Part shown: positions 27,913-30,884 of the stretch, in pieces
Position numbering within the stretch: the stretch's first letter is position 1
Layout of the letters: every line of letters starts with the position of its first letter
From: Akkermansiaceae bacterium
Lineage (GTDB): Bacteria; Verrucomicrobiota; Verrucomicrobiia; Verrucomicrobiales; Akkermansiaceae
DNA length: 64,000 nucleotides
Reading direction: 5' to 3'
Assembly: GCA_017798145.1 (NCBI GenBank)
Contig: CP059069.1
Coordinates: 791,226 to 855,225, forward strand
The notes under the pieces: model-generated
The model's input: only the letters and a program-made list of their open reading frames with translations
Databases searched by the model: none
Told to the model about the DNA's origin: nothing
Translations under genes and position numbers: made by a program

Positions 27913-28320
27913 ATGTTGGAACTGTTGGAACAGGCGCTACTGCCTTTCAATCTGCCCCTCACCATCGCTTTGGGGGCTGTTATGCTGTTCTGGCTCGTCG
28001 TCCTGCTGGGTTTCATCGGCATCGACACCTTCGATGTCGATCTCACTCCTGAGGCGCTGGATGCCGAAACCTTTTCGCTGCCAGACCTCATCGGCAAGCT
28101 GACCAACGCCGCCGACATCCCGGTCACCATCATCATTAGCCTTTATACGCTTTTTCTCTGGATGGCGTCCCTCCTTGGAAACTATTACCTCAATCCCATG
28201 CAATCGAACCTGATCGGACTCGCCATCCTTGGCGGCGGGCTTTTCGTCTCGCTGGCCCTCACCAAGGCCATCACCCAGCCGGAGGTGCGGCAGGGGAAGG
28301 ATGATGGGGATAAGGAGTGA
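27913..28320 (+). CDS. YqiJ-like (DUF1449) membrane protein, N-terminal part only
   Basis: 135 residues with TM helices around 14-36, 67-92 and 97-115. The order of one helix, an Asp/Leu-rich loop (F-D-V-D-L-T), then I-P-V-T-I-I-I-S-L-Y-T-L-F-L-W resembles the membrane half of the YqiJ/YuaF family, whose members carry a C-terminal OB-fold and sit beside flotillins. Here the chain ends in a charged tail without the OB domain, and no flotillin gene is adjacent. Either a short subfamily or a truncated gene. Family assignment is moderate. Confidence 0.6.
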   Translation: MLELLEQALLPFNLPLTIALGAVMLFWLVVLLGFIGIDTFDVDLTPEALDAETFSLPDLIGKLTNAADIPVTIIISLYTLFLWMASLLGNYYLNPMQSNLIGLAILGGGLFVSLALTKAITQPEVRQGKDDGDKE

Positions 28321-28330
28321 AGATTACGGA

Positions 28331-28484
28331 ACCACGGAAGGAAGAAGACGGGACTTCTGTTTGAAGAAGGAGGAACCACGAATTTCACGAATGATTTGGA
28401 TCTCAAGGATCCGCTCTTCAAGATTCGTCCAATTCGTGAGATTCGGGGTTCGTTGAGTCTTCTTCCTTCCGTGTGTTCCGTGGT
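28331..28484. repeat. Nested inverted-repeat element
   Basis: Two concentric inverted repeats. The outer arms, 28333-28349 and 28457-28473, are a perfect 17-bp match (CACGGAAGGAAGAAGAC against its complement). The inner arms, 28373-28392 and about 28432-28451, match at roughly 18 of 20 positions (GAACCACGAATTTCACGAAT type). A partial extra outer arm TCCGTGGT is at 28477-28484. The whole forms one long potential hairpin between two convergent genes. The ACCACGGAA / CACGAATTTCACGAAT wording resembles interspersed repeats often seen in Verrucomicrobiota intergenic DNA. Confidence 0.85.
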
Positions 28485-28490
28485 CAATTT

Positions 28491-30113
28491 TCACTCCCTG
28501 AAAACCTCCGGGACGAAGCGCAGCTCGGTGGCTTCGCGGACGGCGAGGCCGATTTGGAAACGCATGATTTCCTCGCTGACCGGCGCCTGGTAGTCGGCGA
28601 GGGTCTCGATGAGGGCGTCGGCGGGGCTGGTTTCCCGGGTGAGGACTTGGCGGGCGATTTTCACCGCGATGGCTTCTGCGGCACCGGGGGTGAGCAGGGC
28701 GGGCATGGCGGCAGAGGGGGCTGCTTCGGGCAGGTCGATGTCGCGCTGGCGGCAGAGGGCGCGGATGAGGCTGTAGGATTCAGCGTCATTGGCGGTGGGG
28801 AGAAGCGGGATTTTCACGTCGATGCGGCCCGGGCGCTTGAGATCGACCTCGATCAGGTCCGGGCGGCTGGAGGCCAGCAGCCAGAGGATTTTCCCGCGGT
28901 TCGAGGGCTCGCTCATTTCCTTGGCGATCATCGCATAGACGCGGCCGGAGAGGCCGCCGTCGTTGGCGCCGCTGTCGCGTTTGCCGAGGATCTGGTCGGC
29001 CTCGTCGATGAAGACGACGCAGCGGCCAAGACCCTGGAGCAGGCGGAAGATGCGTTCGAGGTTCGCCTCGGTGCTGCCGACCCAGCGGTCGCGGAAATTG
29101 GCGATCTTGACCACGGGCACGCCCGCTTCCCCGGCGAGGCAGTTGGCGAAATAGGTTTTCCCGGTGCCGACAGGCCCGCAGATGAGGTAACCCATCGGCA
29201 TGGCATCGGTGGCGCCGCGCCGCCAGAGCGCGAGATCCTCCCGCACCCATTTCTTGACGGCTTCCATGCCGTGGAGGTCGTCGAGCGTGCGCTTCGGCGG
29301 GATGAATTCGATGAGCCCCTGGCACTCGCGCTCGACCATGGATTTTTTCAGCTCGCCGAGATCGCGGGCTTCGATGGGTTTCCTGCCGTGCTCGCTGCGG
29401 CGGGCGATGCGGCGGAGGGCGGAAAGGGTGGTGCCTGCGAGAAGGGCGGCCGAGTGCGGGCCGTCTTCCACCAAGGTCTTCAACGCGACGGGCGTCTCCT
29501 TGGCCAGGAGGTCCAGGGTGTGGAGGATGGTTTCGGGGCAAGGCAGGGGAACCTGGATGCGGTCGGCGCGGGAGTTCTGCACCAGCATGGGGTGGAGATC
29601 GCTGAGGTTTTCCGTGATCAGGAAAGTCGCGAGCCCGTGGGCATTGAGCCGAGGGTCGGCGGCCCAATCGCGGATCTGCAGGGCGGTGGCGGTGCCGCCC
29701 GCTCCGGCGGGAGCGACGAGATGCGCCTCGCGAAGCAGGAAGGCGACGCCGATGTGGCGGCCGCCGCCGCTGTGGAGGTTGGAGCAGAAGCGGAAGTAGT
29801 GGCTGAGAAAGGAAATGGTTTCGGCGGGATCGCGCGGCAGGGCGCGGTCGCGGGCGGTGGGCCATTGCTGGAATGTTTCCCGCCCGCGCTCGATGCGCAG
29901 ACCCGCGCCGATGTCGTAGCTGAGGACGACATCGAAGGGGGCCAGCAGGCGGGAATCCAGGAATTCCGTTAGAGAACCGAGCCTCGCCGGGTTGTCGCCT
30001 TTCTCATCGATCAGGAAAAAGTCCTGCACATTGCCATGGAGGATGAACTGGCTGGAGGCGTCGCTTTCATAGAGCGCGGCCAGCTCCCGGGTCCATGGCG
30101 TCGGGTTTCCCAT
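28491..30113 (-). CDS. Cdc48/Ycf46-type AAA+ ATPase partnered with PspA
   Basis: 540 residues. The C-terminal half is a classical AAA module: Walker A G-P-V-G-T-G-K-T (about 314), Walker B V-V-F-I-D-E-A-D (about 369) and the second region of homology ending in R-P-G-R-I-D (about 428) with the arginine finger. The N-terminal 260 residues (F-I-L-H-G-N-V-Q-D-F-F opening) look like a degenerate AAA-like domain without Walker motifs, as in Ycf46-like proteins. Starts 12 nt after the pspA stop, so the two are co-transcribed. By analogy with Vps4 acting on ESCRT-III, it may remodel or disassemble PspA polymers; that function is inference. Confidence 0.85.
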   Translation of the reverse strand: MGNPTPWTRELAALYESDASSQFILHGNVQDFFLIDEKGDNPARLGSLTEFLDSRLLAPFDVVLSYDIGAGLRIERGRETFQQWPTARDRALPRDPAETISFLSHYFRFCSNLHSGGGRHIGVAFLLREAHLVAPAGAGGTATALQIRDWAADPRLNAHGLATFLITENLSDLHPMLVQNSRADRIQVPLPCPETILHTLDLLAKETPVALKTLVEDGPHSAALLAGTTLSALRRIARRSEHGRKPIEARDLGELKKSMVERECQGLIEFIPPKRTLDDLHGMEAVKKWVREDLALWRRGATDAMPMGYLICGPVGTGKTYFANCLAGEAGVPVVKIANFRDRWVGSTEANLERIFRLLQGLGRCVVFIDEADQILGKRDSGANDGGLSGRVYAMIAKEMSEPSNRGKILWLLASSRPDLIEVDLKRPGRIDVKIPLLPTANDAESYSLIRALCRQRDIDLPEAAPSAAMPALLTPGAAEAIAVKIARQVLTRETSPADALIETLADYQAPVSEEIMRFQIGLAVREATELRFVPEVFRE

Positions 30114-30125
30114 GACGGGGGAGGA

Positions 30126-30884
30126 TCAGGCGTTGGCTTCCGGCTCGGAGGCGCCCATGGATTTGCGGACGGGGCTTTCCTCGGCGGTCTTGGGGGGAGC
30201 TCCGGGGATGTCGAGGCCTTCCGCCGCGGCGAAGTCGGCGAGCGCCATTTCCTCGAGGGCGGATTGCTCCGACTGCATCGCCTCGATGCTGGAGAGGTTC
30301 ATGGAATCGCGGGCGACGCGGGCGCGGCCGGCGGCGGAGCTGCGCTGCTCCTCGACGATCTCGCTGAGGCGGTTGAGCGTTTCGCCGCCGCTGCCGAGAT
30401 TGGTGACAAGGCCGGCGGCCATCTCGTTGAGTTCGGCGGTCGCTTGCTTGATCTGGACTTCTTTGAGCCCACGGGAAAGTTCCTCGATCTTCCGTTTCGC
30501 CTCGTTGACGGAGACTTCGCGGGCTTTTACGAGTTCGTTGTAGGTTTTTTCCGCCTCGGCGAGTTGCTGGCGGTTCTCATCGAGTTCGCGCTTGGCGGTC
30601 TGGTAACGCATCGCGAGCTGGCCGGCGAGGGTCTGGTTGTTGGCGCGGATGTTGGCGGCGGTCTTGGCCCGCAGTTCCTCGCATTCCTTTTCAAGGCGGC
30701 GTGTCTGGCCGATGAGCTTTTCGCAAAGCCCGGCATGGGCGGCGAGGCCTTGGTTGTATTTCGCGATCTGGGTGCGGAGATTTTCCTTCTCCAGCTCGAG
30801 CAGGGCTTCAGGGTTCTTTTTCTCCAGGCCGCTGACGAAGAGGCCGAAGAATCCGCGCACGATGTTGGATAGTCTGGAGAACAT
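30126..30884 (-). CDS. pspA: PspA/IM30 (Vipp1) family membrane-stress protein
   Basis: 252 residues from ATG 30884. The short amphipathic N-terminal helix (M-F-S-R-L-S-N-I-V-R-G-F-F-G) and the long coiled coil from about 25 to 210 are characteristic of PspA/IM30, now placed in the ESCRT-III superfamily. The last 40 residues are Pro/Ala/Glu-rich and unlike E. coli PspA. PspA coats and seals stressed inner membrane. No PspF, PspB or PspC gene is nearby; instead an AAA+ ATPase follows immediately. The promoter should lie in 30885-31078. Confidence 0.9.
   Translation of the reverse strand: MFSRLSNIVRGFFGLFVSGLEKKNPEALLELEKENLRTQIAKYNQGLAAHAGLCEKLIGQTRRLEKECEELRAKTAANIRANNQTLAGQLAMRYQTAKRELDENRQQLAEAEKTYNELVKAREVSVNEAKRKIEELSRGLKEVQIKQATAELNEMAAGLVTNLGSGGETLNRLSEIVEEQRSSAAGRARVARDSMNLSSIEAMQSEQSALEEMALADFAAAEGLDIPGAPPKTAEESPVRKSMGASEPEANA

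Follow-up and report, generated by a model that had tools for sequence, protein, structure and literature searches.

A near-obligate pairing of PspA with a tandem AAA+ ATPase: a candidate ESCRT-III/Vps4-type unit in bacteria

Does any protein of the PspA/Vipp1 group have a Vps4-like ATPase of its own? PspA is a bacterial relative of eukaryotic ESCRT-III, and PspA and Vipp1 polymerise on the inner side of the cytoplasmic membrane by means of helix alpha0 and a core formed by alpha1-alpha5. The question is raised by a locus of an Akkermansiaceae bacterium whose genome is a single contig of 4.39 Mb, and of which we analysed a stretch of 64,000 nucleotides (the window). Here pspA (30126..30884, minus strand, 252 aa, ATG at 30884) is followed, after a 12-nt intergenic spacer (30114..30125), by a gene for a tandem AAA+ ATPase (28491..30113, minus strand, 540 aa), with both genes intact and in the same orientation. 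An earlier, sequence-only reading had noted pspA and a classical AAA gene 12 nt apart on one strand, in exact agreement with these coordinates, and had proposed that they form a two-gene membrane-remodelling unit. It had also found no pspC nearby, which is true of the whole genome (zero Pfam matches to PF04024). The locus thus shares PspA with the canonical PspFABC system and differs from it in that PspC is absent from the genome and the AAA partner is not PspF. A scan of the locus for promoters and terminators found no sigma-70 promoter and a number of terminators at chance level.

The pspA product is the sole PspA_IM30 (PF04012) match in the genome, and a borderline one (33.4 bits for the protein and 34.2 bits in a six-frame genome search, against a cut-off of 33.9). 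Its AlphaFold2 model (mean pLDDT 77.6) has helices at residues 2-23, 25-80, 84-139, 142-187 (broken) and 205-222, reproducing the PspA/IM30 layout of alpha0, a long alpha1-alpha2/3 hairpin, alpha4 and alpha5, and ends in a low-confidence tail. Foldseek searches with this model returned mainly Vipp1 and CdvB2 chains as top natural matches, all of them weak (E of about 0.04 or more), and comparison of the PspA profile with PDB sequences yielded coiled-coil noise only. Alignment of the model with E. coli PspA 1-144, Vipp1 and PspA rods gave Z scores of 10-11, which are indecisive for helical proteins, at near-identical residue numbering; this register-matched resemblance to the PspA/Vipp1 fold supports the assignment to PspA.

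For the partner, Pfam reports a single AAA domain (PF00004, residues 310-435, 88.5 bits), and the AlphaFold2 model (mean pLDDT 85, pTM 0.79) places a second AAA-like fold in front of it. The N-terminal domain, D1 (about residues 6-250; 29364..30098, minus strand), is degenerate: throughout 87 orthologues it lacks the Walker A lysine and the acidic pair of Walker B, and it carries F-x-L-H-G-N-[VI]-x-D at the Walker A position. The second domain, D2 (about residues 257-540; 28494..29345, minus strand), retains Walker A G-P-V-G-T-G-K-T (residues 313-320) and Walker B D-E-A-D (within residues 367-371) in 87/87 orthologues, which also share a pore loop of the form R-D-[RK]-W-V-G and invariant Trp344, Arg427 and Arg430. 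Residues 5-528 of the model align along D1-D2 of p97 (Z 19.5, rmsd 9.4, 445 residues), with residue 5 paired to p97 residue 210, so that the chain starts at D1 and has no Cdc48 N-domain. D2 alone aligns with yeast Vps4 (Z 19.1, rmsd 3.4, 259 residues) and also with spastin. Residues 1-250 have no Pfam match to an MIT domain, and an AAA domain is predicted there instead. Scores against the NCBIfam CdvC equivalog (44 bits, cut-off 650) and, for the comparison with the Cdc48 group, TIGR01243 (71.5 bits, cut-off 802.65) fall far below threshold. Judged by its motifs, then, this is a tandem AAA+ protein with an apparently inactive D1 ring and a presumably working D2 ring, lacking both an MIT domain and an N-domain. 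Phage records contain generic AAA relatives only, none of which covers 80% of the ATPase query.

The pair has in common with eukaryotic and archaeal ESCRT-III/Vps4 (CdvB/CdvC) a filament protein of the ESCRT-III superfamily with a disordered C-terminal tail and a classical AAA ATPase with an aromatic pore loop 1, and differs in lacking an MIT domain and in having an extra, degenerate AAA domain. Cdc48/p97, VAT and Drg1/Afg2 share the tandem AAA domains, along both of which our model aligns, but possess an N-domain and ATPase motifs in D1; in Cdc48/p97 both AAA domains are competent, whereas D1 here is without Walker motifs. The description of the enzyme as Vps4-like holds in part: with no MIT domain and an inactive AAA domain in front it is not Vps4, and its overall architecture is that of Cdc48/p97 or Drg1 without the N-domain. 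The likeness to an ESCRT-III/Vps4 unit survives in the active second AAA domain and in the likely job, which would be ATP-dependent remodelling of PspA. An association of this kind is already published: the comparative genomics of PMC11237479 (mSystems 2024) describes PspA paired with a dual-AAA+ protein whose N-terminal copy is inactive, names AEY64321.1 and OGG56892.1 as examples, suggests ATP-dependent membrane remodelling, and reports wider operons with a TM 'Snf7' homologue and a PBPB/OmpA protein. As far as that description goes, the PspA partnership, the two AAA+ domains with the first inactive and the wider operons are the same as those seen here, and our locus is a further case.

How tightly the two proteins are bound to each other was assessed from their distribution, with orthologues retrieved using an alignment as the query (a single-sequence query of related loci gave no match). 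Among 59 relatives, the ATPase and this type of PspA are present in the identical 17 genomes, in 7 of which the genes lie on separate contigs. In the order as a whole (332 genomes), 107 genomes have the ATPase, 111 have the PspA and 105 have both (Fisher p 2.7e-76, from counts uncorrected for shared ancestry). The two genomes with the ATPase only belong to a genus in which several relatives split the genes between contigs, and a pspA-bearing contig may possibly be missing from their assemblies. Six genomes have PspA only: four hold merely decayed pspA pieces, and the others are G511, with a divergent PspA (178 bits), and G526, discussed below. In one of the four (L281:3556-3941) a scar joins remnants of the ATPase gene and the pspA 3' end, recording the joint decay of the pair. 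In two relatives from the same genus as this bacterium, pspA lies on a contig other than that of the ATPase (L060:9363-10552 and L063:7975-9116), and the genes after it encode a DUF1232 protein and a second, conserved protein, about 250 aa long, that has no Pfam match.

The best 80 orthologues across GTDB are 49-58% identical to the ATPase. Their source genomes bear the labels Verrucomicrobia, Planctomycetota, Acidobacteria, Deltaproteobacteria, Pseudomonas and others, although labels of metagenome-assembled genomes may be wrong; carriers of the pair include environmental Pseudomonas/Atopomonas relatives (L161, L164). In 53 of these 80, pspA lies directly upstream of the ATPase gene, always on the same strand (53/53), and the remaining 27 genomes each have one such PspA, either elsewhere or on a cut contig. 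The sequence-only reading would have been undermined by an ATPase that is common without pspA; the two instead co-occur in 17/17, 80/80 and 105/107 genomes, and this profile strongly supports a functional unit of two genes. Since many members of the phylum have other PF04012 proteins and lack this ATPase, the partnership is a property of a PspA subfamily and not of PspA generally.

A candidate point of contact lies at the end of PspA. The Pro/Ala/Glu-rich tail that had been remarked on is genuine (residues 223-252, within 30126..30218, minus strand), and resolves into a variable linker and a conserved terminal motif, RKSMG in this protein, whose Met243 is invariant in A2, our alignment and profile of this PspA type. 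Ala, Pro, Glu, Ser and Gly abound in the A2-type linker after alpha5, which measures 20-36 residues including the motif. In the motif itself, [KRG]-[TSEA]-M, the Met either is the last residue of the protein or, more usually, precedes G-P and a few more residues. The motif occurs in 88/90 complete tails, compared with a mean of 14 and a maximum of 26 in composition-preserving shuffles, a comparison that is descriptive, the pattern having been defined after viewing the sequences. The two exceptions read R-E-A-I-G-P; in the genomes with the Ile tail (L159 and L162) the ATPase carries substitutions that include pore-loop V345 to Y, probably as one event. The motif is absent from the closest PspAs of two genomes without a detected ATPase (G097 and G106) and, bar one chance-like internal match, from the canonical PspAs of the phylum. 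In G526, where no ATPase was detected, a full-length PspA (L276:4075-4815) ends in K-A-T, and its relatives end in K-T-M or K-A-M. By sequence comparison, the tail motif is thus shown to go with the presence of the ATPase, and it may be the handle by which the ATPase holds PspA. We found no mention of it in the main text of PMC11237479, where the partnership is described as occasional; here it is near-obligate within the subfamily, kept when the genes are unlinked and lost jointly. The near-perfect co-inheritance even of unlinked genes, the joint decay and the tail motif are the new elements of this work.

Taken together with the predicted folds, these observations suggest a mechanism in which PspA would use alpha0 and the alpha1-alpha5 core to polymerise on the inner side of the cytoplasmic membrane, its disordered tail displaying [KRG]-[TSEA]-M-(G-P). 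The ATPase, which is probably hexameric, with D1 forming an inactive and D2 an active ring, would grip this motif as a docking or initiation site, and the conserved Trp loop would draw PspA into the D2 pore and thread it, so that ATP hydrolysis could extract subunits and the membrane-bound polymer be remodelled or recycled. We consider it reasonably likely that the locus encodes a bacterial pair of the ESCRT-III/Vps4 type, in which the ATPase binds the tail, threads PspA and remodels or dismantles its polymers. Also in favour of this reading, a distant sister family of ATPases, described below, is again accompanied by PspA-like proteins with a conserved terminal motif of their own. A stronger version, in which this is a genuine ESCRT-III/Vps4-type machine whose dedicated motor reads the C-terminal Met motif and turns over PspA polymers, we regard as evenly balanced; in that version the motif would be a convergent bacterial counterpart of the MIM tail. 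In sequence the tail motif bears no obvious likeness to the MIM sequences of ESCRT-III. Eukaryotic ESCRT-III tails recruit MIT-domain enzymes (PMC9477494) by the same positional logic as proposed here, and because both motif and receptor differ from those of ESCRT-III and MIT, the relationship would be one of analogy or convergence and not of membership. If the stronger version is true, it answers the question posed at the outset. In any event, the subfamily provides a near-obligate pair of genes and a precise candidate contact point that can be put to the test, the terminal Met motif, and our literature search found no interaction, ATPase or membrane assay of this pair.

The strongest competitor, though an unlikely one, assigns PspA the role of an adaptor, which would recruit the ATPase to damaged membrane and leave it to unfold or extract other membrane proteins, the tail motif being merely a tether. 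Co-inheritance and the tail motif are equally compatible with such a role, and the operons of some relatives also encode possible clients, namely solute-binding, VWA, OmpA and TM coiled-coil proteins. One of these, represented by alignment A3, a protein of 260-300 aa with a TM-hairpin and a coiled coil and no Pfam match, adjoins pspA or the ATPase gene at 19/80 loci (for example L099:3432-4232, L152:4105-4938 and L161:6614-7462, among others), and probably corresponds to the TM-bearing Snf7 homologue of PMC11237479. It is absent from this genome, however, in which the unit consists of two genes, so that PspA is the only obvious client here, and Vps4, the nearest functional analogue, works on the polymer itself.

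The same neighbours could be taken to mean that the pair is a reduced form of a larger, transport-linked envelope machine made up of PspA, TM coiled-coil, solute-binding/OmpA and VWA proteins and sometimes an ABC ATPase, with assembly or regulation of a transporter as its main job, a reading that we think decidedly improbable. Operons of this composition do surround orthologues and members of a sister family, and those with PspA, a TM coiled coil and solute-binding/OmpA proteins fit what PMC11237479 describes. The operons of five distant sister ATPases, which score about 300 bits against the profile, also encode a TM coiled-coil protein and contain further envelope genes. At four of them (L239, L240, L241 and L242) the operon of the distant tandem AAA+ ATPase includes a divergent PspA-like protein that scores 21-26 bits against profile A2, had no Pfam match in the two cases tested and carries a conserved terminal motif of its own, QKIAE or QKISE; SBP/OmpA-like and TM coiled-coil proteins are encoded there too. 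The idea that PspA is absent at all five was rejected, given the PspA-like gene near these four and a stretch that, in L243, ends before that position. Against an envelope machine as the main function, the extra genes are patchy, with the TM coiled-coil partner in 9/59 relatives as against 17/59 for the pair, and the constant core is PspA plus the ATPase.

Very improbable, in our judgement, is a regulatory partnership of the PspF kind, in which PspA would inhibit the ATPase in the absence of stress and the ATPase would act in signalling. Its precedent is the inhibition of the AAA+ protein PspF by E. coli PspA (PMC8281802), but the present enzyme is a classical AAA protein without a Pfam match to an NtrC-type domain or a DNA-binding helix-turn-helix, and its pore loop is of the threading type. 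A chance adjacency of functionally unrelated genes, to which the unlinked genes of some relatives might point, is already disfavoured by the data to the point of being negligible: the 105/107 co-occurrence, which puts the pairing far from chance, the shared strand in 53/53 adjacent cases and the joint decay all argue against it.

Some smaller features of the locus deserve mention. The idea that a third gene is conserved in the interval separating pspA from the ATPase gene was rejected for this genome, the spacer ORFs of relatives being mostly unrelated or spurious and their one recurrent partner, the TM coiled-coil protein, being absent here, and a suspected gene fission in one relative (G044) was likewise rejected, both halves being located at contig ends. 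Convergent with the ATPase gene is an ORF for a putative membrane protein of 135 aa (27913..28320, plus strand), which has no Pfam or NCBIfam match and is not conserved at the loci of relatives. Two long antisense ORFs, 28473..29972 (plus strand, 499 aa) and 30036..30872 (plus strand, 278 aa), overlap the ATPase gene and pspA and are in all likelihood shadow frames of high-GC genes.
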